This document shows, in pieces, positions 15,808 through 40,804 of a stretch of DNA of 45,933 nucleotides (positions are counted from its first letter, which is position 1; every line of letters begins with the position of its first letter). Position numbers and translations under genes: made by a program. The DNA is from Fischerella sp. CENA71 (GTDB lineage: Bacteria > Cyanobacteriota > Cyanobacteriia > Cyanobacteriales > Nostocaceae): NCBI GenBank assembly GCA_024239075.1, contig JANBVI010000042.1:1-45933 (forward strand), in the 5' to 3' direction. The notes under the pieces were generated by a model that was not told the DNA's origin, searched no databases, and was given only the letters and a program-made list of their open reading frames with translations.

Positions 15808-15936
15808 AAGTACATGGACATTAAAAAACAGCTAACCTTGGCACAGCCCCTAAAGGGCTGTGCCGCCCACAGCGACAGTCTTTGAGACAAATAGATAACT
15901 CATAAAGGTTGGCTGTTTTTTCAGGTGGATCTACTT
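15808..15936 (+). repeat. Hairpin element C (about 129 bp)
   Basis: Outer arms AAAAAACAGCTAACCTT (15823-15839) and its complement at 15905-15921 pair over 17 bp with one G-U. Next to the left arm is a perfect inner hairpin GGCACAGCCC-CTAAA-GGGCTGTGCC (overlapping the arm end at 15839). The 3' single-stranded side has TTGAGACAAATA and ends in ATA before the right arm. Weaker pairing continues outward to AAGTA/TACTT. Layout and motif match elements A (16197) and B (40616), though the arm sequence is unrelated. Confidence 0.65.
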
Positions 15937-15989
15937 ACCAAGCGGCGATCGCTGTTTTAGGCAGGATAGGCATTTGGATTTTCCACTCT

Positions 15990-16319
15990 ATGAGTAACTC
16001 ATCGATGGCTTTGACAGAACAATGGGCTGTTCTGGAAGTGAGTGATGGCGAAAACATGACCGTTCGCCAAACCAATGGCAATCAAATGCAAGTTCGACTG
16101 TGTGGAATTGATGTGCTCAATGTGAAACAAGATAAAGCTTCAGGGCAAGCATTGGGTAATAAAGCTAAAGAAAAACTGCGATCGCTCAGGCACAAGGGAG
16201 CGAATAAATTAGCAAGCGCCGTCGAGGCGCGCTCTTCAGGCGAAAGCGCGCTCGAAGGTGGGTTGAGCCAAAATATTTTTAATACGGCGCTTGCTAATTT
16301 ATTTATTGGAGCTCCTTAA
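15990..16319 (+). pseudogene. Truncated staphylococcal-nuclease-like (thermonuclease) gene
   Basis: The frame encodes the first third of an SNase domain: WAVLEVSDGENMTVRQTNG, VRLCGIDVLNVKQ and KAKEKLRSL. The Arg and first Asp of the active site (RLCGID) are present, but the Pro-Glu that follows in active enzymes is replaced by VLNV. The domain then stops: residues after LRHK are encoded by hairpin element A, which brings in the stop codon. The frame is open upstream to 15909 inside element C, but ATG 15990 is the likely start. Active nuclease is not expected. Confidence 0.7.
16197..16317 (+). repeat. Hairpin element A inserted in the nuclease remnant (121 bp)
   Basis: Outer arms AATAAATTAGCAAGCGCCG and its exact complement (16285-16303) form a perfect 19-bp stem. 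Inside is a smaller hairpin (CGAGGCGCGCT/AGCGCGCTCG, one bulge) and the segment GGGTTGAGCCAAAATAT...AATA. GGAGC occurs at both ends. AAG flanks the element on both sides (16194-16196 and 16318-16320), a possible 3-bp target duplication. It shares motif, layout and 3' end (TTGGAGNTCC) with element B at 40616. Confidence 0.75.
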
Positions 16320-16358
16320 GAGCGAAACGCTCATCAGTCCTTGGGTTTAAAGTCGCTA

Positions 16359-17804
16359 TTAGCAAATATGCCCATACAAATTAAGAACTTCTTGGATTTC
16401 ACGAGTCATTTCCTGACGCAATTTCCAAGGTAATAAAACTTCAACTTTGGAACCTAAAGCCCGCAACCATCTGATAACATAATAATCAGTTGTTCTGTAA
16501 TTTACTCGGTAGTATGCATCGGTATTAGGACGAAATTTAAGAATATTTAAAATTTCTGCTTGATGTTTCTGATCAATAACATATTGTTGAATTAAATCGA
16601 AGGTGTCCTCGTAATTAATTTCAGTAAAAGTATCGTGGATACTGATTCCATCAATATAAGCTTGATGGAAATCCTTCTCAAACCGTAATATCATCAATGA
16701 TTTTTCTTTGTAAAAGTCACATCCCCAAGCTTCTTTTAATTTTGTATTGATAGTTTTTGGAGTCGGTAGTAGATTATTATCATTAATTTCTCTTAATAAT
16801 TGAGGAACTCGAGCATCCTTCCAATTGAGCATTTCTATATTTTGTGAAAGAATACGATCAAGACGATATTTGTACCAATTAATATCACCTTTGGGAGTAG
16901 TTCCATAAGCACATAGATATTTAGCCCGTTCCATAAAATAAATACAAACTGGATAAATAACACACTCTTTTATTTGATTTTGATGGGCGCTATGATATGT
17001 CAAAATTAAAGGCGTAATTTGCCCAGAATCCCAAATTTCTTGCAATTGGCTCTGAATTTCATCTACTGCATCTTGTGTTGAGCTTGATTCTGGTACTACA
17101 TAGTCAACATAGAGAAATATCCGATGATTATCTTCGTCTATTTCCTGCTCTGAAAACTCGTCGGCTAGTACTGGTAAATTAGGGTCAAGAAAACTAAATA
17201 AACCTAAAGTACCTGCTAAATAGGCTTGTTTCTTCCTGCTTAAATTTGCTTGAGTCAGAGAAGTATTTTCGGTTTCTTTAAAATTTGGTAACTTTTCGAC
17301 TCGACGGTAATATTTGCTTCTACCAGCATTCTGATTTATTTTTTGTAGATAATTACGACTGACTAATAAATCGAAATCGCTTTGCAGAGATTTACGAACT
17401 TGGCCAAATAATCTTTCGTCTAGAAGCTTTTCTAGTTCCAAGTCAGCTATGGGTATTTGCGCTTGTAGAGAATTTCGCCATTCGTCAATGGGTACTTCCA
17501 ATTCTAATAACCATTGTTTGGTTGTTTTGCTGCAAGCACAGTTAGAATCTTGATGCTTAAGAATGTCTGCTTGCTTTTCATCCTTGTGGGTTTCGGTAAA
17601 AAAAGCTTTACGCCAATCTATATAAGTAAAGCTGTCTGGGAGACTTATGTAACCATTTTCGCTATATAGCCACCGTAGCAATGCCCATAAGCGGATAGCA
17701 CGGGTAAGATTTTGACTTTGGTCAAGGGAGCCATTTGCTAGTTTTTGCAAAACTTTACAATCTGGAGCGTGTTGAAATAGAGTATTCACAGTAGTTTTAG
17801 GCAT
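16359..17804 (-). CDS. TIGR03985-like CRISPR-associated WYL-type regulator
   Basis: A 481-residue protein of the CRISPR-associated family TIGR03985, known from cyanobacterial cas loci. The N-terminal half is helical with wHTH character; the middle to C-terminal half has WYL-like features (ERAKYLCAYGTTPKGDINWY, YKYRLDRI) and ends RWLRALGSKVEVLLPWKLR. WYL proteins usually control transcription in response to a ligand. It is transcribed divergently from the type III operon, 95 bases apart, so it probably regulates that operon and itself (inference). No lesions are seen. Confidence 0.8.
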   Translation of the reverse strand: MPKTTVNTLFQHAPDCKVLQKLANGSLDQSQNLTRAIRLWALLRWLYSENGYISLPDSFTYIDWRKAFFTETHKDEKQADILKHQDSNCACSKTTKQWLLELEVPIDEWRNSLQAQIPIADLELEKLLDERLFGQVRKSLQSDFDLLVSRNYLQKINQNAGRSKYYRRVEKLPNFKETENTSLTQANLSRKKQAYLAGTLGLFSFLDPNLPVLADEFSEQEIDEDNHRIFLYVDYVVPESSSTQDAVDEIQSQLQEIWDSGQITPLILTYHSAHQNQIKECVIYPVCIYFMERAKYLCAYGTTPKGDINWYKYRLDRILSQNIEMLNWKDARVPQLLREINDNNLLPTPKTINTKLKEAWGCDFYKEKSLMILRFEKDFHQAYIDGISIHDTFTEINYEDTFDLIQQYVIDQKHQAEILNILKFRPNTDAYYRVNYRTTDYYVIRWLRALGSKVEVLLPWKLRQEMTREIQEVLNLYGHIC

Positions 17805-17899
17805 TTGAGCAATTGTTTATAGATTAGCAGTTATTTGGAAGAGGGTATTTCCGATGCTGTGCCATAATGGGCATGACAATTTTGTGATACATCTAGCGC
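17805..17899. promoter_or_regulatory. Divergent promoter/operator region of the type III operon
   Basis: The 95-bp gap between the WYL regulator and the CARF-nuclease gene must hold both promoters. It contains TGCCATAATGGGCA, an imperfect inverted repeat (TGCC/GGCA) near 17860, a candidate operator for the regulator. The promoter boxes cannot be fixed by eye. Confidence 0.45.
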
Positions 17900-19363
17900 A
17901 TGAGTACATCAGAGTTTGATGGGTATAAAGTAGACCATTTGTTTTTGCTGATTGGTGAGAATCCTTTACCTAACTATGTTGCAGCGAAAATGCTGTTAGA
18001 GGAAGGTGGTAAACCTTATCTAGTTTTTAGTGAACGGACGGAAAAACCTGCGGAACGTCTTAAGGAGGAGCTAGGTTTAAGCGATAACGAAATGGTTCCG
18101 TTGAATAATAATGAAGCAAATTCTTACGAAATTAAGAAGAGAATTAGAGAAAAAATTAAGGAAATTCAACGGGAAATTATATCTAAATACCCAGATAAAA
18201 ACCAGTTTGGATTGAATTATACAGGTGGTACAAAAGCAATGGCTGCCCATGCCTATCAAGCGTTACTTATCCTTGATGATAACGACTCAAAAATTCAACT
18301 TAATCCTCCTCCTAGTTTCAGCTACTTGGACTCTAGTAGTTTAAAAATGTTAGTTGAACAGAAAGGTAATCCTATCCCAATAGATGTCAATTTAAAGGAA
18401 AAGCTTTCACTCAAGAATGTTTTTGACTTACATGAACCTTGGAGTCAAAAACAACCACCTATTGAAAATCCAAAATTACCTGAATTGGCAAAAGAGATAG
18501 CGGCTCTTCATACAGATGTAAATGTTGCAAGAGCATGGCGTTGGTGGTGCGATTATGTATTGCGTCGAAAAGCAAGAAACTCTCAAAAGCCAAGCGAGTG
18601 GTTAAAAGAGGATTGTTTAAAAAATATTACTATTCCCTTACAAGCAAATATTGCAGATATAAACCTAACAGAGTATTTAGTTACATTAATGAATTCAGTT
18701 AATAAGGACGACTCTGTTTCAGAAATAATTCAAAACATTCTGCATATATTTAAAGATAATGAATTTAAAAAAATCAGAGAAATGTCTCAATTATCTAACT
18801 CTTTATGGTCTTCATCAAATACTCAATATATTGAAAAGATAGTTGGGCTTATTCAATCAAGCTTGGGTTTGTCTGGAGCAGAGTTATCATTAGCTGATGC
18901 TAGCCAAAAGGGACAATTTAAAAAAATTAAGCATTTGTGTAAATGGCTTGATGGTGAATGGTTAGAACATCATGTTCTGCAAGAAATAAAAAATATCTCT
19001 TCTCCTGATAATTTTATCAGTGATAGTAAAATGTCATTTCACATTCAAGATGATAAAGGAAATGACAAATTTGAATTTGATGTTGCTTTCATTCATAATT
19101 ATCAACTTTTTGCTATCTCTTGTACAACTGATACTGAACCCGAATTATGCAAGTTAAAATTATTTGAAGCCTATCGTCGAACACGACAGATGGGAGGAGA
19201 TGAAGCAAGAGTTGCTCTAGTATGCTGCTATGAAAAACCTGAGAAAATTAAAAAAGGTTTTATGGCTCAAATTCAAGATGAGAATGTTAATGTTTTTGGC
19301 TGTGGCGAACTAGCAAAACTTTCTGAAAGTTTAAAAATATGGATTCAAAAGGTTGATAAATAA
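17900..19363 (+). CDS. CARF-domain nuclease, Can2/Card1-like (DUF1887)
   Basis: A predicted cyclic-oligoadenylate-activated nuclease acting as the accessory effector of the type III system. The N-terminal CARF domain (about residues 1-170) has the ligand-binding motif YTGGTKAMAAHAY at residue 107 onward. The C-terminal restriction-endonuclease-like domain has FEFDVAFIHNYQLFAISCTT, with Asp394 as the catalytic acid; the usual lysine position reads Thr (SCTT), a variant I recall for DUF1887 proteins. The 487-residue length fits the family. It starts the operon and its TAA overlaps the cas10 ATG (TAATG). Can2-like proteins cut DNA and/or RNA non-specifically; the activity here is inferred. Confidence 0.8.
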   Translation: MSTSEFDGYKVDHLFLLIGENPLPNYVAAKMLLEEGGKPYLVFSERTEKPAERLKEELGLSDNEMVPLNNNEANSYEIKKRIREKIKEIQREIISKYPDKNQFGLNYTGGTKAMAAHAYQALLILDDNDSKIQLNPPPSFSYLDSSSLKMLVEQKGNPIPIDVNLKEKLSLKNVFDLHEPWSQKQPPIENPKLPELAKEIAALHTDVNVARAWRWWCDYVLRRKARNSQKPSEWLKEDCLKNITIPLQANIADINLTEYLVTLMNSVNKDDSVSEIIQNILHIFKDNEFKKIREMSQLSNSLWSSSNTQYIEKIVGLIQSSLGLSGAELSLADASQKGQFKKIKHLCKWLDGEWLEHHVLQEIKNISSPDNFISDSKMSFHIQDDKGNDKFEFDVAFIHNYQLFAISCTTDTEPELCKLKLFEAYRRTRQMGGDEARVALVCCYEKPEKIKKGFMAQIQDENVNVFGCGELAKLSESLKIWIQKVDK

Positions 19364-21078
19364 TGAATAATTTAGTTGCTACAGTAATTGATACTACTGG
19401 AATACAAAAGTATATTTTTGGAAGCAATCGCTTGCGTGAAAATATCGGTGGTTCATATTTGGTTCAAGTATCAACAAGTAAATGGGTTAAAGAATGCTTG
19501 AGGGAACTGCGAAAACTAGGCCAAGTTTATATTCCCAATGATGAAACGGAAGATTTTGAAGCGCATATTGCTACAAATATAGGAATCATAGGTGAGTTCG
19601 TTTATGCAGGTGGTGGTAATACAGTATTACTTTTCAGAACAGAAGAATATGCGAAAAATTTTACTAAACAATTAACCAAGAAAATACTCCATGAAGCACC
19701 GGGATTAAATATTGTTATAGCCCATGAGGTTTTTGATTGGGATAATGACTCACTTCAAGAAGTTATGGAGCGAAAATTAATCCAAGAAAAATTGGAAAAC
19801 CAAAAGCGCAAACCAAAACCATCAATGCCAGTATTAGGTTTAGCTGTTACAGCTACTTGTGATTCAACTGGATTAGTTGCGGTAGACAATAGTAAACGCT
19901 ATGGTATTCCAGAGAATGATAGTTACTTGGTTTCTAGAGAGACAGTCGCTAAACTTAAAACAGTTGATAAAAAATATGATGAGCTTGCAAATTTAGAACT
20001 TAAAGAGAGTATTTTCAAAGATTTAAATTTGGGTGATTACCACATACCATATGACGTTGATGATTTAGGACGTTCGGAAGGTGATAGCAGCTATATTGCA
20101 ATTGTTCATGCTGATGGCAACAGATTAGGGAATCGCTTTCAGGATTATTTAAAAACTGCATCTGATAATGGAGATTGCATTATCAAAATGCGAAAATTTT
20201 CTCAATCTGTAAATAATGCAGGAAAGAGTGCTTTACGCGCGATCGCTGAAATTTTGATAAATTTAATTACAATTGAAGACGAACGAGCAGTAATTAAGTA
20301 CATAGATACAGAATCAGGAGAAATTAGCAATAAGATAATCCTGCAAAAAAGGGATGGAAAAACCTATTTACCTTTTCGTCCTCTAGTCTACGGAGGTGAT
20401 GATATTACTTTTGTATGTGATGGACGTTTGGGATTATCTCTAGCTGCAAAATTATTAAATAAATTTGAGGAATTTACTAGTAATTTACCAGATGATAAAG
20501 AGAAAGCAACTGCTTGTGCAGGTATTGCAATTGTGAAAAATCATTATCCTTTTGCTAAGGCTTATGCATTAAGTGAAGCGCTATGTATTCAGGCTAAAAA
20601 GTGGATGAAAAAAGAAACAAATAACTATCAAAAACCAATATTTTCTGCTTTAGATTGGCATATTGCAGCTAGTGGACTAATTGGGTCAATTCATGAGATT
20701 CGCAAACGAGAGTATGAAGTACAAATTCCCGAATGGAATAAGGTAGCTTCTTTAGTAATACGACCAATGCATTCAGGTTCATACGAAAATGAATGGCGTA
20801 CATGGTCTAGTTTTACCAAAGTTATTAATGAATTTAATACACACGAAGATTGGAAAGATAAGCGTAATAAAGTAATGCGATTGCGTGATGTACTGCGTCA
20901 AGGACATGAAGCGACAAAACAGTTTCGACAACTACACAGTCTTGAAAGCTTACCAAAATTTCCACAAGCTAATACTAAATTGGGAGAGGAAGGTTGGTGG
21001 AATGGTGTTTGTGCTTACTTCGATGCCATTGAAGCGATGGAATTTCACATACCTTTAGGAGATTCAAGCGATGAGTAG
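19363..21078 (+). CDS. cas10: Cas10, HD-less with GGDD cyclase motif (type III-D)
   Basis: Large subunit of the type III effector; on target-RNA binding the palm domain makes cyclic oligoadenylates. The 571-residue protein begins directly at the first palm-like domain (DTTGIQKYIFGSNRLRENIG), so the usual N-terminal HD DNase is absent. IAIVHADGNRLG lies near residue 245-256 and the cyclase motif YGGDD at 343-347 (GGDD 344-347). It overlaps the next cas7 by 8 bases. With no HD domain, the defence output probably depends on the CARF-nuclease and on target RNA cleavage by Cas7 subunits. Confidence 0.92.
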   Translation: MNNLVATVIDTTGIQKYIFGSNRLRENIGGSYLVQVSTSKWVKECLRELRKLGQVYIPNDETEDFEAHIATNIGIIGEFVYAGGGNTVLLFRTEEYAKNFTKQLTKKILHEAPGLNIVIAHEVFDWDNDSLQEVMERKLIQEKLENQKRKPKPSMPVLGLAVTATCDSTGLVAVDNSKRYGIPENDSYLVSRETVAKLKTVDKKYDELANLELKESIFKDLNLGDYHIPYDVDDLGRSEGDSSYIAIVHADGNRLGNRFQDYLKTASDNGDCIIKMRKFSQSVNNAGKSALRAIAEILINLITIEDERAVIKYIDTESGEISNKIILQKRDGKTYLPFRPLVYGGDDITFVCDGRLGLSLAAKLLNKFEEFTSNLPDDKEKATACAGIAIVKNHYPFAKAYALSEALCIQAKKWMKKETNNYQKPIFSALDWHIAASGLIGSIHEIRKREYEVQIPEWNKVASLVIRPMHSGSYENEWRTWSSFTKVINEFNTHEDWKDKRNKVMRLRDVLRQGHEATKQFRQLHSLESLPKFPQANTKLGEEGWWNGVCAYFDAIEAMEFHIPLGDSSDE

Positions 21079-21787
21079 CTACACCCTAAAAATAAAGTTG
21101 CTGAGTGATACAACATTTGGTCGTGGTGATGGAGTTGCGGGGTTAGTTGATCAAGAGTTAGAACACGATAGCTACGGATTTCCTTATTTGCGAGGACGTA
21201 CCTTAAAAGGGTTACTAAGTGAAGAATGCGATAACTTAGTTGCTGCAATACTACATGATAATCAGCACGAAAATTGGCAGAAAATTTCTGATCAATTGTT
21301 TGGTAAGCCGGGTAGTACACTTGATAATCAAGGGATTATGCATGTAGGTGACGCATGTTTAGCGAGTGATTTACGAACTGCGATCGCATCGCAAATTGAT
21401 GAGGAATCTGAAAAACAACGTAAAAAGCCTGAATATCAACCAAGGTTGAGCAATATTGACATATTAGAATCATTGACTACCATCCGTCGTCAAACTGCAA
21501 TTGACCCAGAAACAGGTTCTTCTGCTGAACGTAGTTTGCGGTCAGCGCGTGTAATTTTGCGTGAGTTATCTTTTGAGTCAACGCTTGTATTTGAAAAGGA
21601 ATTAAACACAGATTTAGAAGAAGATAAAGATATTTTGACACTTTTAATAGTAGGTACACTAGCGTTAAGAAGGGTTGGAAGCGGACGAAATCGTGGTCGA
21701 GGTCATGTGCAGTGTACTTTATGGAATATGCAGCATGAAATTACTAGAGAGATTAGTTATATTCAACGTTTCGGGAGAGGAATATGA
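21071..21787 (+). CDS. cas7: Cas7 (Csm3-like RAMP), type III-D effector
   Basis: A 238-residue RAMP backbone subunit that binds crRNA and probably cuts target RNA. It has TFGRGDGVAGLVDQELEHD, whose acidic residues sit where Csm3/Cmr4-like Cas7 proteins carry the catalytic Asp, then LRGRTLKGLLSEECD and the glycine-rich GSGRNRGRGHVQC near the C-terminus. In Synechocystis III-Dv, as I recall it, the corresponding Cas7 is fused to Cas5-Cas11; here it ends in its own stop, overlapping the next ATG by 4 bases. Confidence 0.82.
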   Translation: MSSYTLKIKLLSDTTFGRGDGVAGLVDQELEHDSYGFPYLRGRTLKGLLSEECDNLVAAILHDNQHENWQKISDQLFGKPGSTLDNQGIMHVGDACLASDLRTAIASQIDEESEKQRKKPEYQPRLSNIDILESLTTIRRQTAIDPETGSSAERSLRSARVILRELSFESTLVFEKELNTDLEEDKDILTLLIVGTLALRRVGSGRNRGRGHVQCTLWNMQHEITREISYIQRFGRGI

Positions 21788-23505
21788 AAGCAATTACTTT
21801 TTTACTACATACACAGCAACCCATTCTCGCAACATCACTTCAAGGCGACCCTAATAGCAATGTTTCTTATGATTATATTTTGGGTAGCATGATTCGCGGA
21901 GCTTTGATTAGGCGATATTTAAAATCACCACAAAATAACATTAGAGAAACTGATGATATTTTAGATTCTGAGCGGTTTCCACAAATCAAGCGATTATTTT
22001 TTGATGCTTCTAAAACACGATACTTAAATGCTTACCCTGTTGCAAATAATAAGCAACGTGCTTTACCAATACCACTTTCTCTATATAAAAATAAAGGTGA
22101 TGAATTATCAGAAGAAGATTCTACAGATGTTTATGATTTTAGTAAGATTCCAGTTGATGAAAAGGAAGAATATTTACCGGATGATTTTTCTGCTAAATTA
22201 CTAAATGAAAGTTTCTGTAATCTCGATGATGAAGAGATAATTGTTCATCGAGTTAAGCGGAGAATAAACATACATAACCAACGCGATCGCAAACGTGGAA
22301 AAGGTACTGATAGTAATGGCGCAGTATTCAGTTATGATGCTATAGATGCAGGGCAAACTTTTCAAGGAGTAATACTTTGTGACTCACAAGAAGACAAACT
22401 TATTATTGAATATTTACTAAAATCACAGGATATTTGGTTAGGTGGTTCTCAAAGTGCAGGTTACGGACATACAAAAATAGAGTTAATTTCAAATGATAGT
22501 AATTGGTCGGAAGTTGCAATAAATTTAGATGCCCGTCTCCAAAATAAAAAAAATATTACAATTACACTTCTTAGTGACACAATTTTAATTGATAATCATG
22601 GGCAATATTCGGCACTTCCAGATATATTGCGTCAAAGAATTTCCCAAGCTTTAAAGTTAGATACAGAACTTGAATTTCAAGAAAATGCTATTTATACTAG
22701 TAGCATCATTGTCGGAGGGTTTAACCACAAGTGGGGTCTACCTTTACCACAAACACCTGCTTTAGCTGCTGGAAGTGTATTTGTTTTAAAAAAAACTGGT
22801 ATAGATTTAAAGCAATTACAAAAACTTGAAGAACAAGGAATTGGTGAACGTAGAGTTGAAGGCTTTGGACGCATTGTAGTTAACTGGTTAGATGAAGATG
22901 TAACTAAATATCAAGTTAACTTAAGCACACCAGAAACTGAAAACCAGCAAGATAAGAATAAATTAGAATTACTGAGCGCACATTCACTCAAAATAGTAGA
23001 AAATATTGCAACAAGAATTATCAAAAAAAATCTTGATATTTTAATAACGAAAAGAGTTAGTAGTATAGAAATAAAGAAAGAAAATATTTCTAATAGCCAA
23101 CTTTCAAGATTGATGATTATTACCAGACAGGCGTTATCTCAACTTGAACTAGAACGAACTAAACCTGAATCTCAGCGTAAGACCATATTAGAATTATCAG
23201 AATCTATAAGTAGCTTACTAAAGAATTTATCTTCTAATGCTCGTAGCCAATTTGAACGTACTCGTTTAAATACAGGTGAACGATTGGATGAGCAAATACA
23301 TGAATGGCTCAAATCACCAAAAGGTTGGATAGAACGTGATTGGTCTAGCGATCCACAAACTAAAAATATGGTTGAGAATAACAAGCCATACATCAAAATT
23401 GCTAATGTGCCAAAAAGTATTGATGATTACCTTGCATTAGAATATACATTTCGTTTAATTATCACAATTACTAAAAAGACTATAAAGGATAAAAATAATG
23501 ATTGA
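21784..23505 (+). CDS. csx10: Csx10-like Cas5 subunit with helical C-terminal (Cas11-like) region
   Basis: A 573-residue protein. Residues about 1-380 contain two ferredoxin-fold RAMP-like modules: GDPNSNVSYDYILGSMIRGA at the start, GGSQSAGYGHTKI in the middle and GIGERRVEGFGRIVVNW at the end of the second. Residues about 390-570 are helical and charged, in the place of the Cas11-like part of III-Dv Cas7-Cas5-Cas11 fusions. It is expected to bind the crRNA 5' handle next to Cas10. A GGGAGAGGA site precedes the ATG, which overlaps the cas7 stop. It overlaps the next gene by 8 bases. Confidence 0.75.
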   Translation: MKAITFLLHTQQPILATSLQGDPNSNVSYDYILGSMIRGALIRRYLKSPQNNIRETDDILDSERFPQIKRLFFDASKTRYLNAYPVANNKQRALPIPLSLYKNKGDELSEEDSTDVYDFSKIPVDEKEEYLPDDFSAKLLNESFCNLDDEEIIVHRVKRRINIHNQRDRKRGKGTDSNGAVFSYDAIDAGQTFQGVILCDSQEDKLIIEYLLKSQDIWLGGSQSAGYGHTKIELISNDSNWSEVAINLDARLQNKKNITITLLSDTILIDNHGQYSALPDILRQRISQALKLDTELEFQENAIYTSSIIVGGFNHKWGLPLPQTPALAAGSVFVLKKTGIDLKQLQKLEEQGIGERRVEGFGRIVVNWLDEDVTKYQVNLSTPETENQQDKNKLELLSAHSLKIVENIATRIIKKNLDILITKRVSSIEIKKENISNSQLSRLMIITRQALSQLELERTKPESQRKTILELSESISSLLKNLSSNARSQFERTRLNTGERLDEQIHEWLKSPKGWIERDWSSDPQTKNMVENNKPYIKIANVPKSIDDYLALEYTFRLIITITKKTIKDKNND

Positions 23506-32354: not shown

Positions 32355-34220
32355 ATGGCTTCATGCCACATGATCAAGCAACTATTCATTACAAAGACTT
32401 ACAGTAATTATGCTGACACATTTTTGGTGTTGGGGTTGGCGCATCTTGCCGAATATGCTTTGCAAGCAACTAAGCAAAAAAGCGCAATGCAACTGATTGA
32501 CAAGGGTACAGCTTACATCATCCAATTCAAACAGCCAATCAACCTAGAAGCGATCGCCAAACTTACTTACTCTGATCCTTTCCCAATTGTTAAAGGACAA
32601 AAAACTGATACCAGTAAAATACCCGCGGAAATTAAACCCTTTGACACTGTTGAACAAACCCAGACTCGCAAAGTTTATCGAGATTTCCTATTTAACAACC
32701 GAGGAAAAAGCGAAAATCTCGAGGAAACACCGAAACCACCAGACCCCAGAACCCAAAATGGTGTGATTCTGACACAAATGCGGTGCGATCGCAATCATAA
32801 TGACCTGTGGTTAGGTAGTTGGGAACTGGGAGATCATTACGGTGTTTTACTGGCTACAATATTGCAAGGTTTTAGCCAAGAAAATACTGAAATTCAACAA
32901 ATTGCGGATTTATTTTACAAAGCAACGGGTTGTAAGTTACCCAGTCTGGCGAGTGCTGTCAAGGTTTATTTACCTACCTCCGTCCAAGGAGTCAACCGAG
33001 TCAAAGCAGACAGCAACAAAGTAGATTCACAAAAAGCTGATTGGTTGAGTTTGTGGTTAATTGCGACGGGATTATTTCATTTTGCGATCGCCGAACGAGT
33101 GAAAATTAGCGATCGCGTCTTTGATTGGCGAGTTGTGGCTTTACAGCCTCAAGATATATCTTTAAGTAAATATCAGGATATACTCAAACAGCTATTAGTA
33201 TATAATCCTCCCAGTGGGGGTCATGGAATCGCCCGATTTGATGCCGAATTGGTATTACGCTTTTGTCAAGAATTGCTCAATCATCATCAAGCTTTAGCAA
33301 ATCAGGAAACCGCAGCTCCAGAAGATGATTTTGATATCTGGGATAAACCTGTAAACCACTTTGTTAGCAACTTTGCGGGGACTCATTTCGGTTTCAAGGG
33401 ACAAGTTTATGGAGTCAAAGAACTCTTTAGCTTGGGACTACCAACTTGGATACATCCCCACAACAGCGAGGAATTGCACAGCTTCCAGAGCATTTTAGCA
33501 GAACATCTCAAAATAGTGCGATCGCTCTCCATTGATGAGGGAAACAGCGAATTACTTGCAGCTTATCGAGATTTTATTACTAGTAATGATTTATACCAAT
33601 TTTTCCGCTTCCAAGTCAGCTATGCGGATTATGTGACAAAAAAACTAGCCGATGTTAATTCTAGAATTGTCTTATTTTCCAAACAGGGAATCGATATAAT
33701 GGTCAGAAATTTACATACAAAACTACGTCAAAATGACCAAGATTGGCAATTAACAGAAATCACCGAAGATCCAGGATTTTTAAATATTGCTAAAGCCATC
33801 AATAGTGCCACAGTCTATGCTGGAATAATCTGGGACAAAGAGGGAAAAACCAAAGAAACAGGCTGGGAGAGAATTTACGGATTGGCACAGCGTTTAACTG
33901 CTCAATCAGGTTCCAAAAAAGATTTTATCATTGAAATTAGCTCATTTTTAGCCAGTTATGAAAATGAAAACTTACGCAGAGACGACGAATTAAGAAAACA
34001 AAAGAAACCTCGCCGCATTTGGACAACAAAATCTGACTTAGATAGCCTAATTCACCTAATTGATAAATACGGTTCCAGCCTAGTTGCCAACCTGTTAATA
34101 GCCTACGGATATGCTAAAGGTTGGGGTAAAGGGAAAGATCCAGACAGCACAGATAAAGAACCCGATGAAATTGATGCAACTGAAGATATCGACATGGACG
34201 ACAAAACAGAAGCAGCATAA
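32355..34220 (+). CDS. cas8: Cas8-like large subunit, second type I system
   Basis: A 621-residue protein at the head of a cas7-cas5-cas6-cas4-cas1-cas2 operon, hence the presumed Cascade large subunit. I recognise no zinc-finger CxxC pair as in Tneap-type Cas8b and no Cas10d-like motifs, so it is not type I-D; a Cas8a/Cas8b-like variant is most likely. It begins with YADTFLVLGLAHLAEYAL, has QMRCDRNHNDLW near residue 138, and ends with GYAKGWGKGKDPDS followed by a strongly acidic tail. The start at ATG 32355 lacks a clear ribosome-binding site; ATG 32370 is an alternative. Confidence 0.65.
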   Translation: MASCHMIKQLFITKTYSNYADTFLVLGLAHLAEYALQATKQKSAMQLIDKGTAYIIQFKQPINLEAIAKLTYSDPFPIVKGQKTDTSKIPAEIKPFDTVEQTQTRKVYRDFLFNNRGKSENLEETPKPPDPRTQNGVILTQMRCDRNHNDLWLGSWELGDHYGVLLATILQGFSQENTEIQQIADLFYKATGCKLPSLASAVKVYLPTSVQGVNRVKADSNKVDSQKADWLSLWLIATGLFHFAIAERVKISDRVFDWRVVALQPQDISLSKYQDILKQLLVYNPPSGGHGIARFDAELVLRFCQELLNHHQALANQETAAPEDDFDIWDKPVNHFVSNFAGTHFGFKGQVYGVKELFSLGLPTWIHPHNSEELHSFQSILAEHLKIVRSLSIDEGNSELLAAYRDFITSNDLYQFFRFQVSYADYVTKKLADVNSRIVLFSKQGIDIMVRNLHTKLRQNDQDWQLTEITEDPGFLNIAKAINSATVYAGIIWDKEGKTKETGWERIYGLAQRLTAQSGSKKDFIIEISSFLASYENENLRRDDELRKQKKPRRIWTTKSDLDSLIHLIDKYGSSLVANLLIAYGYAKGWGKGKDPDSTDKEPDEIDATEDIDMDDKTEAA

Positions 34221-34304
34221 TCATCTTATTTTCGCTTCACTCTGCGAAACTTTGCGCGTACTTTGCACAACTCTGCATTAAAAAATAATTAGGAATCCCA
34301 CCCA

Positions 34305-35267
34305 ATGTCAAACAAACAATTCCCCATTTATTCACTCTCCATTAGCGGCTTACTTTCTTGGCAACTTCATGCCTTAAACAACGAAGGAAACGAAGGAAAT
34401 CAATCTTTAACCCGACGATTTTACATCATTCAAAAAGGCATGAACGAACCCGAATATGTGAATGGTATTTCTGGTGATATGCTCAAACATATTCAAGCCG
34501 AACATTTACACCGCATTGCCCTAGAATCAAACTTGCATTTATCCGCAGGTGGTAAACAATTTAATCCTGATCGCATTGGCTACGATATTGATAAAAACCT
34601 CCCGATTTTTAGCGACAAAGACACAGATTTAGCCGCCAAAACAGCCAAAGCTTTACAACTTTGTACCATCAGCGATTTAGAAGGATTCATGGTGACAGTC
34701 AAAGGAGGACAAACTCTCAAACGTGAGTCTGTAATTGAATTTGGCGCAGTTGTTGGTTTACCAACATTTGTCAAAACCCAAAGCTATTTTCACGCCAAAT
34801 ATGGTGTAGATAATCCCACACCCTACAACGTGCAAGTAAGTTCTGGTTTATACGCAACCGTCCTGAATATTGAAGCCTTCCGCATCGGTTACAATCCCCA
34901 TAACTTCAGCTACAGCATTGATATTACTGAACGCAAACAACGTTTAGATGCATTACTCAAAAGTGTACTTTACACCTATCTGCAACCCAACGGAGCCAAA
35001 CGCAATACCAACTTACCCCACCCCGACCATTTTGAAGGAGTAATCACCGTCAGCACCCGTCGCTGTCCCGCACCGATGTTGAGTCCATTAGAAGAAAGCT
35101 ATAACCGTCAAATTAATAGTTTGGCTAACACTTTAAATCATCTCAACGGAGCAGGGACAATTCACTGCTTTGAATTTGATTCAATGGCAGAATTCGCCGA
35201 ACAAATCCAAACAATTATTACACAAGGGCAACCCTGGGAGAGCGACAATGCCGAAGCAGTTGAATAA
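34305..35267 (+). CDS. cas7: Cas7 backbone subunit (DevR/Csa2-like), second type I system
   Basis: A 320-residue Cas7 with YSLSISGLLSWQLHALNNEG, then SLTRRFYII and the characteristic VNGISGDMLKHIQAEHLHRI. These fit the DevR/Csa2-like Cas7 group of I-A/I-B-like systems. It polymerises on the crRNA spacer. AGGAA lies about 9 bases before the ATG. Cas5 starts inside its last 20 bases. There is no internal lesion. Confidence 0.9.
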   Translation: MSNKQFPIYSLSISGLLSWQLHALNNEGNEGNQSLTRRFYIIQKGMNEPEYVNGISGDMLKHIQAEHLHRIALESNLHLSAGGKQFNPDRIGYDIDKNLPIFSDKDTDLAAKTAKALQLCTISDLEGFMVTVKGGQTLKRESVIEFGAVVGLPTFVKTQSYFHAKYGVDNPTPYNVQVSSGLYATVLNIEAFRIGYNPHNFSYSIDITERKQRLDALLKSVLYTYLQPNGAKRNTNLPHPDHFEGVITVSTRRCPAPMLSPLEESYNRQINSLANTLNHLNGAGTIHCFEFDSMAEFAEQIQTIITQGQPWESDNAEAVE

Positions 35268-35991
35268 TAATTCTTCTCTCCTCTACAAAGAGAAATGGCT
35301 CACCGTTAGCTACCAACCCGTAAGTTTATTTACTCTCAAACGCTCTGATGCAACTAGCATGGCTGCACGTTCCAATTTGGTACCCACACCCTATGCTATC
35401 AAAATGGCGTTATTAAAAGCATTACTAGAAAGCCAAGGGAAACACCACCAAGACGACTTTGAGATTTGGATCAAAAAGGAATTTTCCTGGATTCGTGATT
35501 TGCAGATATACCTGCTCCCACCAGAACAATTGGTAGTCAATCGCAACGGTTACAAACTCAGATATTACGACCAAACCGCAGATAAAGCCGACAAAAATCG
35601 CTCCACAGTACCTATGCAAGATGGGTTTGTATTTCGGGAATGGATACATTTACAGGGAGAATTAAAAATTTGTGCGGGAGAATGCGACAACCTCGCAGAA
35701 TTAACTCAATTATTCGCCCAAATCAATTATTTTGGTAAAAAAGGTTGCTTTTTCCAATTTCTTCCCGACGCAACCCAACAAACCGATACACCCACCTTTA
35801 CACCAGACCCCACCACTAGTTTCACCGTGCAACCAATGGATGATTTAGGTAAAAAAACTACCTTTAACCGCATTAATCCATTTTCCAATGATAAAGCCCA
35901 GATTGACAAAGACCGGATAATAGAACCAGGATTTTTACCATTACGACTTCGTTCTACTAGTGCCCGTTATGACTTTTACCAAAGATACTGA
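35248..35991 (+). CDS. cas5: Cas5 subunit, second type I system
   Basis: A 247-residue protein in the Cas5 position. N-terminal WLTVSYQPVSLFTLKRSDAT followed by AARSNLVPTPYAIKMALLKA is the Cas5 pattern (the strand leading into the P-T-P-Y helix). The start at ATG 35248 has GGGAG 7 bases upstream and overlaps cas7 by 20 bases; the frame is open further upstream but that part is the cas7 gene. The stop overlaps cas6. Confidence 0.82.
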   Translation: MPKQLNNNSSLLYKEKWLTVSYQPVSLFTLKRSDATSMAARSNLVPTPYAIKMALLKALLESQGKHHQDDFEIWIKKEFSWIRDLQIYLLPPEQLVVNRNGYKLRYYDQTADKADKNRSTVPMQDGFVFREWIHLQGELKICAGECDNLAELTQLFAQINYFGKKGCFFQFLPDATQQTDTPTFTPDPTTSFTVQPMDDLGKKTTFNRINPFSNDKAQIDKDRIIEPGFLPLRLRSTSARYDFYQRY

Positions 35992-37024
35992 TAGTAATAA
36001 TGCTGCAAATACCTTACAAAATAGCAGAAAAACAGTAAACCCCTTTGCTGGATTAAGTGTAATTTTACGCCCAACTGAAACATCATCTACAGCGATCGCT
36101 TTAAGGGAATGGCTAGTTGAGGTTGATACTGCACCCATCTGGATACCTCTACGTAAAATAGATGGAGTAACGAAAATCATGCCTGTACTACCAGAAGCGA
36201 TTTTGTACGAAAATTTAATGCGATCGCTCTTAGGGCAAATCGCTGAAAATAGCTTGGTAGAATGGCGAGAGAAAGCCTACGAAGTTGGTGGTGTTGAGGT
36301 CAATTCCCATTCCCTACACACCATCCAAATTGCTATTTCCGCAGTCAAAGCCCTTCCCCCCACATTAGGACGTGCTATCCATGCATTGTGTTTTCGCTGG
36401 TTTGCTAATGCAAATTCAGAATTAGCCGAAACGTTACACAAACAAGATCATCTACCAATAACAATCGGGTTGGAATACTGTTCTCCGAAAAAAAACCTGT
36501 TGAAAATCAGCTTATTACAAAAAGAATTACTCGCACCCTTACTGTGGGGAATGAATGCAGACTTGGGTAACGAGATTACATTAGCGGGAATACCCTGTCG
36601 TTTGGGTGGTTGGATCGATATTACCCAAGCAACCAGCTATGAGAAACTTGTACAACTACCAACTCAAAATTTCATCGAATTCCAATTTCTTACCCCCACC
36701 AGTTTCAAACAGGGTAAAAATATTCAACCTTTTCCCCTACCTGAATTGGTTTTTAATGGACTATTGCGACGTTGGAATCTATTTGCACCAGAAGCATTAA
36801 AATTTCCTAGCATCGAATGGAATGCGGTAGTTTCAGCTTACGAACTCAAAACCTACGCCATGAAAATGGAAGGTGGTGCAGAGATAGGTGCAGAAGGATT
36901 AGTCAGATATAGATTCACAGACAGCGAACAAGCCAGAATCGCCACCACTTTAGCGCATTTTGCCACCTTTGCCGGCATTGGTCGAAAAACTGCAATGGGA
37001 ATGGGACAAGTGAAGGGGGGATAA
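35969..37024 (+). CDS. cas6: Cas6 endoribonuclease, second type I system
   Basis: A 351-residue Cas6 that should process transcripts of arrays 2 and 3. The C-terminal glycine-rich loop GIGRKTAMGMGQVKGG is diagnostic; FLTPTSFKQGKNIQPFPLPE marks the second ferredoxin fold. It is the only Cas6 near these arrays, so it probably also supplies crRNA to the type III complex (inference). ATG 35969 is chosen; GTG 35960 is also in frame. It faces two repeat types in array 2 that differ exactly in the 3' stem and cleavage region. Confidence 0.88.
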   Translation: MTFTKDTDSNNAANTLQNSRKTVNPFAGLSVILRPTETSSTAIALREWLVEVDTAPIWIPLRKIDGVTKIMPVLPEAILYENLMRSLLGQIAENSLVEWREKAYEVGGVEVNSHSLHTIQIAISAVKALPPTLGRAIHALCFRWFANANSELAETLHKQDHLPITIGLEYCSPKKNLLKISLLQKELLAPLLWGMNADLGNEITLAGIPCRLGGWIDITQATSYEKLVQLPTQNFIEFQFLTPTSFKQGKNIQPFPLPELVFNGLLRRWNLFAPEALKFPSIEWNAVVSAYELKTYAMKMEGGAEIGAEGLVRYRFTDSEQARIATTLAHFATFAGIGRKTAMGMGQVKGG

Positions 37025-37030
37025 GGGAAG

Positions 37031-37076
37031 AGCAGGGAGCAGGGAGCAGGGAGCAGGAGTTAGGGGGCAGGGAGCA
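37031..37076 (+). repeat. Heptanucleotide tandem repeat (GGGAGCA type)
   Basis: Between cas6 and cas4: the unit GGGAGCA (or AGCAGGG) occurs about six times, partly degenerate (GGAGTTA, GGGGGCA). Such short tandem repeats are common between genes in Nostocales. Confidence 0.9.
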
Positions 37077-37083
37077 TTGACCA

Positions 37084-37674
37084 ATGACTAATATGAATGA
37101 AAATTACTTACCCCTGGCGTATCTTAACGCTTGGGAATATTGCCCACGGCGATTTTACCTTGAATATGTGCTAGGAGAAATGGAAGACAACGAACATATT
37201 ATTTTAGGTCGCCATTTACACCGCAACATTAATGAAGAACTAGTAATAACCGAAGGCGATACCGTAATTCGTCAACAACAATGGGTATGGAGCGATCGCC
37301 TGAAAATTGCCGGGATTATCGATGCAGTGGAAGAGTCTGAAGGTCAACTTATCCCGGTAGAATACAAAAAAGGGAAAATGGCACAACATCTCAACGACCA
37401 TTTTCAACTCTGTGGTGCAGCTTTATGTTTAGAAGAACGCACCGGACGCAGCATTGCTTATGGCGAAATTTTTTACCACGCCAACCGTAGAAGACAAACC
37501 GTAGCATTTACCCCACAATTACGACAAGCTACAGAAAATGCGATCGGGCTTGCTCAAGTTGCTGTTAATCAGCAAATGCCAGCCCCCATTAACAATAGCA
37601 AAAAATGCTCCTCATGCAGCTTGCAACGAATTTGCTTACCTTTTGAGGTCAAAGCACTCCGTGCAGAAATGTAA
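37084..37674 (+). CDS. cas4: Cas4 nuclease, second type I system
   Basis: A 196-residue RecB-family Fe-S nuclease that helps select and trim prespacers. Cysteines: Cys20 (EYCPRRFYLEYV) and the C-terminal cluster Cys175, Cys178, Cys184. Nuclease motifs: GRHLHR, AGIIDAVEESEGQLIPVEYK with the Asp and the E-x-K pair, and QLCGAALCLEE. ATG 37084 or 37093 could be the start. Free-standing Cas4 here contrasts with the Cas4-Cas1 fusion at 8810. Confidence 0.93.
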   Translation: MTNMNENYLPLAYLNAWEYCPRRFYLEYVLGEMEDNEHIILGRHLHRNINEELVITEGDTVIRQQQWVWSDRLKIAGIIDAVEESEGQLIPVEYKKGKMAQHLNDHFQLCGAALCLEERTGRSIAYGEIFYHANRRRQTVAFTPQLRQATENAIGLAQVAVNQQMPAPINNSKKCSSCSLQRICLPFEVKALRAEM

Positions 37675-37736
37675 AGAGGATTCTGCACTAGGTTTTGGTA
37701 AAGCAATTGTTTGAAAATTCAAAATCCCAAATTAAT

Positions 37737-38714
37737 ATGTCAGTTCTCTACGTTACTCAAGCCGAAGCTGTTTTAAGTAAAGTCTACGAAGCCTTCACTG
37801 TCTCTTTAAAGCAGGAAGATGGTACATGGAAAAAAAAAAATATACCCGCACAAACTGTAGAACAAGTAGTTCTCATGGGTAATCCTCAAGTTACCGGAGA
37901 CGCTCTGGTCTATGCTTTAGAATTAGGAATGCCCGTACATTATCTTTCCTTTTTCGGAAAATACTTAGGCTCGGCGCTGCCTGGATACTCCCGTAACGGT
38001 CAACTTCGGTTAGCTCAATATGCAGTTTACAACGATCCTGCACGACGTTTGGAATTAGTCAAAGCAATAGTTACTACCAAGATTCACAATCAGTACAACG
38101 TACTTTATCGCCATAACGAACGGGATAATCCGCTCAAACAACGCAAAACTATGGTTAAAACCCAAAAAACTATAGACCAGGTGCGGGGAATTGAAGGATT
38201 AGCAGCACGAGAGTATTTTGCTTGTTGGCAAAGAATGGTTGGGAAACAATGGACTTTCAACGGTCGCAATCGTAACCCACCCACCGATCCCGTGAATGCC
38301 TTATTAAGTTTTTCCTATGCTTTGTTGAAAACCCAAGTTACCTCTGCGGTTCACCTTGCTGGACTTGACCCCTATATTGGTTACTTACATGAAGTCCATC
38401 ATGGACAACCAGCAATGGTATTGGATGTCATAGAAGAATTTCGTCCTCTCGTTGCTGACAATGTAGTTTTGGGCTTGTTGGGTAAACGGGAAATTCAACC
38501 CCAAGATTTTACTGAAAGTTTGGGTGCTTATCGGCTTTCTGATGCAGGCAGAAAATGCTTTTTAGAAGCATTTGAACGGAAAATGAACGATGAATTTACC
38601 CATCCAGTTTTTAATTATCGTTGCACCTATCGAAGAGCGATCGAATTGCAAGCACGATTGCTGAGTCGGCATTTGCAAGAAGGTATTCCCTATAAACCCT
38701 TAACTTTGCGGTAA
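37737..38714 (+). CDS. cas1: Cas1 integrase, second type I system
   Basis: A 325-residue Cas1 with the metal triad Glu153 (GIEGLAAREYF), His218 (YLHEVHHG) and Glu233 (VIEEFRPLV). The N-terminal beta domain starts MSVLYVTQAEAVLSKVYEAF. I use ATG 37737; the frame is open to TTG 37695 but that part does not look like Cas1. It integrates new spacers next to the leaders at 30765 and 39151 (inference). Confidence 0.95.
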   Translation: MSVLYVTQAEAVLSKVYEAFTVSLKQEDGTWKKKNIPAQTVEQVVLMGNPQVTGDALVYALELGMPVHYLSFFGKYLGSALPGYSRNGQLRLAQYAVYNDPARRLELVKAIVTTKIHNQYNVLYRHNERDNPLKQRKTMVKTQKTIDQVRGIEGLAAREYFACWQRMVGKQWTFNGRNRNPPTDPVNALLSFSYALLKTQVTSAVHLAGLDPYIGYLHEVHHGQPAMVLDVIEEFRPLVADNVVLGLLGKREIQPQDFTESLGAYRLSDAGRKCFLEAFERKMNDEFTHPVFNYRCTYRRAIELQARLLSRHLQEGIPYKPLTLR

Positions 38715-38840
38715 AACACAAACAGGACAAGAAAATTAACAATTTAAGACTAAAGACATTTTTCAGACAAGGATTTAAACTCCGCCTGTAGCTTGCTTCC
38801 CGCAGTGTAATTGAGGCTGTTGCTCAAATTTCAAATCATA

Positions 38841-39134
38841 ATGAATAAGCTATTTTATCTCATAATTTACGATTTACCCGATAATAAAGCAGCTAATAAG
38901 CGGCGTACTCGGTTGCATAAAATGCTTTCTGGTTATGGAACTTGGACACAATATAGTGTGTTTGAATGTTTTTTAACGACGGTAAAATTTACTGAAATGC
39001 AAATCAAGATTGAAAATTTAATTAAACCAGAAGAGGATTCAGTTAGAGTTTACGTGCTAGATGCTGGCTCTGTAAAACGAACGATTACTTATGGTTCCCA
39101 AAAACCTCGACAAGAACAAGTTATTATTCTATAG
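38841..39134 (+). CDS. cas2: Cas2, second type I system
   Basis: A 97-residue Cas2 starting MNKLFYLIIYDLPDNKAANK with Asp11 in the conserved YDLPD strand end, then GTWTQYSVFECFL. The ATG is 30 bases inside a longer open frame that begins at TTG 38811. It ends 16 bases before leader 3. With Cas1 it forms the integration complex. Confidence 0.93.
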   Translation: MNKLFYLIIYDLPDNKAANKRRTRLHKMLSGYGTWTQYSVFECFLTTVKFTEMQIKIENLIKPEEDSVRVYVLDAGSVKRTITYGSQKPRQEQVIIL

Positions 39135-39150
39135 TTATGTTGTTAGCTTA

Positions 39151-39354
39151 ATGTTTGGCAAACCAAAGCGGGGGCTAAAACCTGGGGGGTTCTGCCAAAA
39201 TCGCCAGAACCTTGACAAGTTAATAGTTACATCGTTTGAAAACTTGCAACAAATAGGAATATGTTGCAATAAGCGAGGGTGAAATGAGGTCATTTTTGAG
39301 GTCTGCCAAAACTGCTTGTAGAATCCTTGCTCTGTAAGGGTTTCAGGGGGCGGA
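39151..39354 (+). promoter_or_regulatory. Leader of array 3 (204 bp)
   Basis: Same length as leader 2 with about ten base differences. Both inverted repeats (GGTTCTG/CAGAACC and TTGCAAC/GTTGCAA), the TTGACA box and the last ~60 bases are conserved. Confidence 0.8.
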
Positions 39355-40338
39355 CTTGAAACTTAGCGAATCCTGTAAACGGGATTGAAACTGAAGTTTA
39401 CACCGTTGATTAGTAGCGATATTAAGTATCCTTGAAACTTAGCGAATCCTGTAAACGGGATTGAAACAAAACCAGTAAAATATAGTTAGGTCTAAGCTGA
39501 CACTTGAAACTTAGCGAATCCTGTAAACGGGATTGAAACATGATGAAGAAGGAGAAGATAAATCAATCCTCACTCTTGAAACTTAGCGAATCCTGTAAAC
39601 GGGATTGAAACAAAATAGTTAGTCCATAAGTAACGGTCAAAGTCTTTTCTTGAAACTTAGCGAATCCTGTAAACGGGATTGAAACAATATAGAATTAACA
39701 CTTTTACTAATCAGTTTAACTTGAAACTTAGCGAATCCTGTAAACGGGATTGAAACAATCAATTTCGCTAATTTCAGTCACAACGTTATCACTTGAAACT
39801 TAGCGAATCCTGTAAACGGGATTGAAACTTCAAAAACGGCTGTTTTAATCTTGATACCAAAGACTTGAAACTTAGCGAATCCTGTAAACGGGATTGAAAC
39901 AATCTAAACTTACAACGCTTGTTGTGACTGTTTCTTCTTGAAACTTAGCGAATCCTGTAAACGGGATTGAAACCGGCATAAATATTGCACATCAATTCAT
40001 CGTAATGATGCTTGAAACTTAGCGAATCCTGTAAACGGGATTGAAACCAAATCCTGAGAAACCAAAATAATGATTACAACCTTGAAACTTAGCGAATCCT
40101 GTAAACGGGATTGAAACTTTTTATTGTCTTTCGTCTCACGTCCTTTCTGAAAAGCTTGAAACTTAGCGAATCCTGTAAACGGGATTGAAACCAGAACTAT
40201 ATTGGTAAGTTAAAGGGAATTCATTTTTCTTGAAACTTAGCGAATCCTGTAAACGGGATTGAAACCTTCGGACAATTGAGCGTTATGAAAAACTCAAAGT
40301 TCTTGAAACTTAGCGAATCCTGTAAACGGGATTGAAAC
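39355..40338 (+). CRISPR. CRISPR array 3: 14 repeats of 37 bp, 13 spacers
   Basis: Identical repeats start at 39355, 39431, 39503, 39575, 39649, 39720, 39792, 39864, 39937, 40011, 40081, 40155, 40229 and 40302. They differ from the old-type repeats of array 2 by one base (CCTGTAAAC instead of CCTGGAAAC) and end GGGATTGAAAC. AATCC and GGATT can pair, and the handle would be ATTGAAAC, as in many type I and III systems. Spacers are 39, 35, 35, 37, 34, 35, 35, 36, 37, 33, 37, 37 and 36 bp. Transcription is left to right from leader 3. Confidence 0.97.
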
Positions 40339-40363
40339 ATATCTGCGTCAACGTTATTTAACT

Positions 40364-40804
40364 TTATAATGCCGTAGGATTTGTCAAAAACACCGCCGCC
40401 GTACCCGTCTCACCGTGCCGTGCCTTAGCTACAAGTAGTTCTAAGATTCCCCGGTCAACGGTATCCGGGTTGTAGTACTCATCTCGGTAAGCCAAGATGA
40501 TGTGATCTGCCACCATTTTGGCAAGGTTATGAAATTCCCAATCTATTAAGGGTGCAAGTCCATCTCGATGTCTACGGATGCGATCGCTTATTCTGCCCAT
40601 AGCTTCTGGGTCAAGGCCTTTCCAATTAATAAAATATCGGTGCCCTCGCGTTCCCACCACGTGGGAACGCTCACCAATTCTTGGGTTGAGCCAAAATATA
40701 TTTGATAGGGCACCGATATTTTATTTTTTGGAGATCCCCAAGCATGATTCGCCTAAAATCGCTTCTTCAACCTCAATGTTTTGGGGTGGTAGTCGGTCAA
40801 TCAC
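40364..40804 (-). pseudogene. dnaB: dnaB-like replicative helicase remnant
   Basis: Minus strand: GGAGGT then GTG 40804 starts VIDRLPPQNIEVEEAILGE, the DnaB N-terminus. Hairpin element B interrupts it with an early stop (40721). After the element the gene resumes with LDPEAMGRISDRI, then jumps to the C-terminal helicase end (ADHIILAYRDEYYNPDT, then KARHGETGTAAVF), so several hundred central residues including Walker A are lost. It is a non-functional leftover, perhaps of a plasmid or phage-type replication gene. Confidence 0.75.
40616..40739 (+). repeat. Hairpin element B inserted in the dnaB remnant (124 bp)
   Basis: Outer arms AATAAAATATCGGTGCCC and its exact complement (18 bp) with weaker pairing further out; inner perfect hairpin GCGTTCCCAC-CAC-GTGGGAACGC; then GGGTTGAGCCAAAATATATTTGATA before the right arm is represented by the shared GGGTTGAGCCAAAATAT core. 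The 3' end TTGGAGATCCCC matches element A. AAG flanks both sides (40613-40615, 40740-40742). Removing the element and one AAG nearly restores the DnaB reading GIMLDPEAMGRI, which supports these borders. Confidence 0.8.

Follow-up and report, generated by a model that had tools for sequence, protein, structure and literature searches.

Hairpin elements A and B of a Fischerella contig are copies of a short mobile element family, probably moved by ISAzo13-family transposases

The stretch of DNA analysed here, which we call the window, comprises 45,933 nt of Fischerella sp. CENA71 (contig JANBVI010000042.1, from a draft assembly of 95 contigs). It carries three hairpin elements, A, B and C, which an earlier note had grouped into a single family whose arms are paired but unrelated in sequence. 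All three hairpins are present at the places given in that note. By DNA pattern searches and BLAST-type comparisons, we found that A and B are copies of a short (about 124 bp), multi-copy, dispersed family without coding capacity, and that C is something else. With a probability of roughly 0.8, the A/B family consists of non-autonomous miniature inverted-repeat transposable elements (MITEs) of the Nostocales that would be moved in trans by ISAzo13-family transposases.

Hairpin elements in the window

The arms of hairpin C (15807-15839 and 15905-15937) are 82% complementary, those of hairpin A (16203-16222 and 16284-16303) 100%, and those of hairpin B (40621-40646 and 40707-40732) 92%. Compared with 200 shuffles, C, A and B gave folding z-scores of -6.1, -5.9 and -9.2, respectively, on the plus strand and of -5.0, -6.1 and -7.1 on the other strand. 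None of the three matches an Rfam family at the gathering threshold; all eight hits to Rfam within the window are to CRISPR repeats (CRISPR-DR33). The parts of the elements are listed below, where genomes searched are numbered from G000, that of CENA71 itself.

40615..40738, plus strand: element B, complete family copy of type I (TTTGATA core), 124 bp; from own-genome copies, empty sites in G001, G003 and G004, and the duplication CAA
40612..40614, no strand: left target duplication of B, CAA (family-wide in 64/74 copies)
40739..40741, no strand: right target duplication of B, CAA, from the flank comparison
40615..40627, plus strand: left terminal module of B, GGCCTTTCCAATT; the first 23 bases of B are identical at 18/23 to the left end of an ISAzo13-family element of NIES-4106
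40628..40645, plus strand: left arm of B, AATAAAATATCGGTGCCC, pairing perfectly with 40708-40725
40648..40670, plus strand: inner hairpin of B, stem GCGTTCCCAC, loop CAC; the family also has the inverted loop GTG
40681..40694, plus strand: apical hairpin of B, TTGG(GTTGAG)CCAA, with a loop that varies across the family
40691..40707, plus strand: conserved core of B, CCAAAATATATTTGATA, from the core pattern search
40708..40725, plus strand: right arm of B, pairing with the left arm
40726..40738, plus strand: right terminal module of B, TTTTGGAGATCCC; the last 23 bases of B, as reverse complement, are identical at 21/23 to the same ISAzo13-family left end
16189..16315, plus strand: element A, same family, type II (TTTAATA core), with end modules GGCACAAGGGAGCG and TTGGAGCTCC and no exact 3-bp duplication
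16203..16222, plus strand: left arm of A, 100% complementary to 16284-16303
16284..16303, plus strand: right arm of A, from the inverted-repeat search
16268..16284, plus strand: conserved core of A, CCAAAATATTTTTAATA, from the core pattern search
16324..16350, plus strand: what may be left of a second copy, of type I, adjoining A, from comparison by eye with family copies
15807..15937, plus strand: element C, a separate MITE family with ends TAAGTA...TACTTA and fixed arms

A copy of the A/B family runs from an end module through AATAAA, an arm word, the inner hairpin, TTGG(loop)CCAAAATATATTTRATA, the second arm word and TTTATT to the other end module. The end consensus sequences, GGnnTnTCCAAATAATAAAATGn and GGnAnnTCCAAnnAATAAAATnn, are terminal inverted repeats, imperfect mainly near positions 3-6. 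The common layout proposed for A and B is borne out, and both carry TTGAGCCAAAATA and ATA before the right arm. The AAG said to flank both elements turned out differently: the AAG of B is the 3-bp target duplication CAA plus the next G, and A, with TCA on its left and TTA on its right, lacks an exact duplication.

Element C does not belong with them. A search with C returned four further full-length copies, two from the own genome and one each from G001 and G002, that are 93-96% identical to it across some 131 bp. It also returned a 49-base match in G007 and two short pieces from G001 and did not hit A or B, which ruled out one family of three elements. The arms are conserved across C copies, and the inner hairpin occurs in two forms, CCCCTAAAGGG and CCCTTTAGGGG, that is, with its loop in both orientations. 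The TTGAGACAAA of C resembles the loop of the A/B family, itself variable (GTTGAG in 22/113 parsed copies). C is a separate, ordinary MITE outside the A/B family.

Size and distribution of the A/B family

The strict core CCAMAATATWTTTRATA matched 48, 21, 34, 18 and 10 times in G000 to G004, and a reversed control pattern did not match; two of these 131 matches (L088 and L127) fall in a shared gene without an element. With B as query, at least 45 blastn matches were found in the own genome, 40 of 89 candidates having been scored. With A as query, 6 of 40 genomes matched, namely the five of the genus (own included) and, weakly, G011; copy numbers from this query are lower bounds, as at most 21 candidates were scored per genome. 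The genus-level genomes besides the own one are those of Fischerella, Westiellopsis and Pelatocladus, and records of Anabaena, Mastigocoleus, Calothrix, Cylindrospermum, Nostoc and Amazonocrinis hold one to three matches each. Outside the cyanobacteria, the patterns matched at three places (L197, L244 and L246), which had no surrounding element and were removed before counting. A phage collection searched with B gave no match.

From the extracted loci we took 136 distinct core places, of which 113 could be parsed into modules and 23 could not; in an earlier parsing, the unparsed places were mostly truncated or altered copies, L088 and L127 among them. Two variant forms were seen along the way. 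A related subfamily in the own genome reads GGGATCTCCAATAAATAAATCAGCCCAGCCC...GGGCTGGGCTGATTTATT...GTGCC with a different interior (L248 from 192, L255 from 192, and, on the minus strand, L260 from 2425 and L262 from 2111). Another locus, L267:538-1025, holds a 488-bp B-type copy whose inner hairpin is split by about 364 bp with inverted ends of its own (GAAGGTTCGTG...). No description of the A/B family was found in the portions consulted of the literature around PMC10969869, PMC3542288, PMC3116915, PMC2836001 and PMC6005162; Elhai 2008 and Wolk 2010 may contain one.

Target duplications and empty sites

Both ends were recognised by end patterns in 74 of the 113 parsed copies, and the duplication test was made on these. 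An exact 3-bp repeat flanks 64 of them, compared with a mean of 16.4 and a maximum of 27 when the right flanks were re-dealt among copies; TTA or TAA makes up 40 of the 64 duplications.

Empty sites, which the earlier note had proposed to look for in related strains, exist and are precise, that of B included. The joined flanks of B align through the junction in G001, in G003 and twice in G004, with 83-86% identity; these alignments span positions 131 or 134 to 324 of the query, in which the junction lies near 165. Across the family, 165 distinct places (19 on NIES-4106 plasmids and 146 elsewhere) were compared, each queried only where it had sufficient flank and against the extracted DNA. For eleven distinct insertions, the counterpart has only 60-65 bases, where 64 is the length expected of an empty site. 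Four of the 11 were inspected base by base, and two of these have flanks 99-100% identical to the empty site; one of these two recent insertions has mismatched arms. These two lie on plasmid2 of NIES-4106 and face empty Pelatocladus sites with a single TAA or TTA, and L046 and L050 form another empty-site pair. The A/B family transposes and is a MITE family by its short length, inverted ends, fixed 3-bp duplication and empty sites.

B itself seems to interrupt a dnaB-like gene (40364-40660), of whose site several uninterrupted copies exist in relatives. The label is given because the left-hand open frame matches DnaB_C, with a score of 26.8 that lies just under the 27-bit cut-off.

Arm pairing and exchange of modules

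The arms were tested in 107 copies, 6 of the 113 parsed having been left out because the anchor was wrong or the copy was differently built. Perfect pairing was found in 65/107, compared with a mean of 24.0 and a maximum of 38 when arms were shuffled within core type, a procedure that holds core type fixed and does not remove relatedness between copies. The claim that the arms of one copy vary in step is therefore upheld beyond chance. Type I copies have perfect arms in 26/44 (shuffled 4.3, maximum 11) and type II copies in 39/63 (19.7, maximum 30). When each distinct arm pair is counted once, 8/25 are perfect in type I (1.4, maximum 6) and 8/16 in type II (3.5, maximum 9), the latter inside the shuffled range. 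Among 13 NIES-4106 copies added later, eight have matched and five mismatched arms.

Arm sequence is not free. The arms are a limited vocabulary of recurring, interchangeable words: TGCCCAGCCG on both sides in 24 copies, TGCCCAGCCG on the left with GCAAGCGCCG on the right in 14, and ten matched arm words in all on a single conserved backbone. Arms falling into a few fixed sequences, the outcome that the earlier note had set against its own idea, are largely what we found. Nor are the arms rebuilt by copying at each insertion, an explanation that the differing arms of A, B and C, and nothing further, had favoured. One arm pair is common to 24 copies, many copies at different sites having the same arms, and shared and recent insertions bear arm words known from other copies. 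At the three NIES-4106 shared sites that we aligned, one element is identical, one has two substitutions (one of them in the right arm) and only the third has a block exchanged, so that two of three keep their arms. We give rebuilding at insertion next to no credence.

Could selection keep the stems paired and leave their sequence free, as in a structured RNA or a folded single-stranded transposition intermediate? The z-scores of -5 to -9 on both strands and the excess of perfect arms are what such selection would give. So is the association between modules, in which the two end modules form the strongest pair overall (bias-corrected normalised mutual information 0.46-0.47), at 0.51 in type II and only 0.28 in type I. 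Strict selection is, however, at odds with the 37/107 copies that are less than 90% paired in the arm word, at least one of which moved recently (empty-site flanks 99% identical), and the explanation is further weakened by the near-equal folding of both strands, the lack of an Rfam family at threshold for A, B and C, and the type II distinct arm pairs within the shuffled range. We regard it as quite unlikely. The two arms are not always each other's closest associates: in type II, the arm-arm value (0.39) equals those of left end with core (0.38-0.39) and left end with apical loop (0.38), and in type I it is 0.25-0.26, below left end with inner hairpin (0.34-0.35) and right arm with right end (0.32-0.33). 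For this reason, we gave the arm-pairing shuffles more weight.

A different account needs neither selection for pairing nor copying from arm to arm. Each arm word would descend from one ancestral palindrome of an old subfamily, and mosaics would have arisen by ordinary recombination. Arm words do cross genera, TATCCAGCCC being common to Calothrix, Mastigocoleus and Westiellopsis. Copies also appear to have recombined, as expected from L057/L070 and L065/L115, pairs that have the right half and right flank in common and unlike left flanks; L057 and L065 lack a matching duplication. At the third shared site, L073 (G001) and its NIES-4106 counterpart L277 agree in the flanks and most of the element and differ in a block that includes the left arm and the inner hairpin's left half, the arms being matched in L073 and mismatched in L277. 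The differing block extends into the hairpin, and the opposite arm is therefore not its only template. Two observations pull the other way. Three pairs of copies (L055/L073, L041/L123 and L071/L129) have the same inner hairpin, apical loop and core and differ in one whole arm word, each pair with one matched and one mismatched member, so that the differences go between the two states. Ten matched words on one backbone, moreover, imply many two-sided changes, some of whole blocks. Descent from old subfamilies alone comes close to an even chance in our estimation, a little short of it. In a more tentative proposal, one arm might, after insertion, be rewritten to the opposite arm, or to the arm of another copy, by hairpin template copying, so that new paired words arise and spread; we hold this to be unlikely.

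Among stem-and-loop classes of the inner hairpin seen at least twice, 9/10 have the loop both ways round, and eight further classes were seen once. The hairpins could have been independent mobile repeats inserted into a mini-transposon, the small dispersed repeat (SDR) alternative that the earlier note had allowed for; at about 21-27 nt and folded as hairpins, they look like the SDR families of Nostoc punctiforme. For two inner-hairpin types, sought in the own genome with patterns of perfect stems and set loop lengths (the second with one reversed-control match per strand), 11/11 and 23/23 places lay inside element copies on comparison by eye, and none of the 34 lay outside. The alternative is unsupported for these two types, and we consider it very improbable.

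A candidate helper

We scanned the window and the extracted loci of at least 1500 bases for GG...CC ends that are spaced by 700-2600 bases and flanked by a 3-bp duplication. The top candidate is a 1610-bp insertion sequence (IS) of NIES-4106 (AP018301, 47658-49267) with a TTA duplication and 18/18 identical end bases. Its PF07592 (ISAzo13) transposase (E=6.7e-61) is split between two frames, which score 206.4 and 35.5 bits against PF07592 (curated cut-off 26.9) and 75.4 and 182.7 against NF033519, each alone below the cut-off of 200. Three relatives of 1595 bp occur in Westiellopsis (G003), with 16/18 end bases and duplications CTA, TAA and TTA; all three have both ends and no stop within the matched stretches. 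A plasmid of Nostoc sp. ATCC 53789 has ends of this kind as well.

The first 23 bases of the NIES-4106 IS find their best minus-strand match in the window at the right end of B (21/23), and the left end of B is the tied best plus-strand match (18/23); its right end matches the right and left ends of B at 19 and 16 of 23. Judging by these ends and the duplication, the helper of the A/B family is most likely an ISAzo13-like transposase. PF07592 matches occur in 14/40 genomes, including 5/5 of the genus, although the own genome holds only two partial pieces.

Several facts count against this assignment and should be set beside it. The ends of A match the IS ends poorly, at 8 to 12 of 23. Differences between MITE and IS ends concentrate at positions 3-7, and the left and right ends of a MITE copy are usually unlike words where those of the IS agree with each other. 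The exact duplication is absent in 10/74 copies. The best of the two partial pieces in the own genome, a draft assembly, reaches E=1.3e-14. Finally, PF07592 is found in 9/35 genomes outside the genus, and G011, which lacks it, weakly matches A.

Some other observations concern the IS. The 1610-bp element has a long hairpin near each end (L321:7709-7751 and 9152-9188) and, near the frame junction, eight consecutive A, as in programmed frameshifting. In Pelatocladus (G001; L329 near 2611-2625), an ISAzo13-type end, GGGACTTCCAAG, begins after TTA just inside an GGCCTTTCCAA end, where an IS was apparently inserted into a mini-element.

Other candidates were set aside. A PF13359 (IS5-like) helper, suggested by the TTA/TAA duplication, has nine matches in the own genome and no fitting ends around them; one such gene (38571-39020) sits in G000:C38:37559-39920, flanked by complete element copies that are about 2.2 kb from each other. 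Single ends in the own genome were in no case part of a long autonomous copy, several being other mini-elements, fragments or chance matches. An IS1634 copy in AP018300 starts near an GGCCTTTCC end and was not taken as a helper because its own ends lie further in. A 2004-bp candidate from Mastigocoleus (L245) proved by eye to be two mini-elements without an IS.

Neighbouring features

A WYL-domain gene (16359-17804) ends 43 bases from A, and its neighbour (17900-19363) encodes a Card1-like endonuclease domain. A CRISPR array (10927-11462; Rfam CRISPR-DR33, 8 repeats) adjoins a fused Cas4-Cas1 gene (8810-10477), and a Cas6 gene lies at 35960-37024. An inverted-repeat element at 14688-14925, with 26-nt arms that are 81% complementary and 186 nt apart, is perhaps another MITE. 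The remnant of an IS at 12737-13659 has ends AGACCTCTTGCAAAAG and AGATCTCTTGCAAAAG and, in two frames, stretches that match PF13359 and HTH_Tnp_4.

Discussion

We propose the following course of events for the A/B family. An ISAzo13-family transposase would recognise ends of the form GGnnnnTCCAAnnAATAAA and insert the element at TWA-like trinucleotides, each insertion copying the arms of its donor unchanged. Once the element is in place, its paired arms would diversify as copies or arms exchange short tracts or serve one another as templates, and also through inversion within the hairpins. Any preference for paired arms would be at most weak. What sets the A/B family apart is its repertoire of interchangeable paired blocks.

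This proposal links the cyanobacterial hairpins to transposases of a named family and is therefore testable. Numerous short copies occupy sites open to comparison across strains, so the fate of matched arms, mismatched arms and flipped loops can be traced at shared insertions. Such a comparison could give direct evidence on whether bacterial repeats are reshaped by hairpin-templated copying or by gene conversion. If arms are indeed rewritten, the family would preserve a natural history of sequence correction templated by hairpins, and of inverted loops, in a bacterial genome. More generally, apparent covariation in repeats can stem from the swapping of ready-made blocks and does not require a selected RNA.

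Comparison with known systems

The closest likeness is to the ISAzo13 family (PF07592, NF033519), which has similar outer ends, GGGACTTCCAA..AATAAA, and 3-bp duplications of the TWA type. The IS is 1.6 kb long with a two-frame transposase, whereas the A/B element is geneless, its arms are extended, it contains inner hairpins and its left and right ends are unlike. The SDRs of Nostoc punctiforme (Elhai et al. 2008) are hairpins with compensatory changes and reportedly also lie inside mini-transposons; the two A/B inner-hairpin types that we searched occur, in the own genome, only inside the element.

The ends of mPing start with GG. This Tourist/PIF-Harbinger element has the same 3-bp TAA/TTA duplication, but it is eukaryotic and uses another transposase system, so that the likeness is one of analogy only (PMC2836001). 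REPINs with RAYT transposases are likewise small hairpin mobile DNA, found in Nostoc punctiforme among others, according to the relevant passages of PMC3116915. Unlike these, the A/B family has duplications and ISAzo13-like ends that point to a DDE transposase; no RAYT search was made.

Loops lying both ways between short inverted repeats are also known from the minute hairpin-loop inversions of chloroplasts, for which the consulted portion of the source describes no transposon context (PMC6005162). Among cyanobacteria, the MITEs of Anabaena sp. 90 measure 77-541 bp and comprise 147 complete or partial copies, including, by a figure legend, a folded element with three sets of inverted repeats; in the same excerpt they are classed as type II, with no obvious resemblance to that genome's own ISs (PMC3542288). 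Compared by description only, the A/B family differs from these elements, as that excerpt presents them, in having an IS with similar ends in its relatives (PMC3542288).

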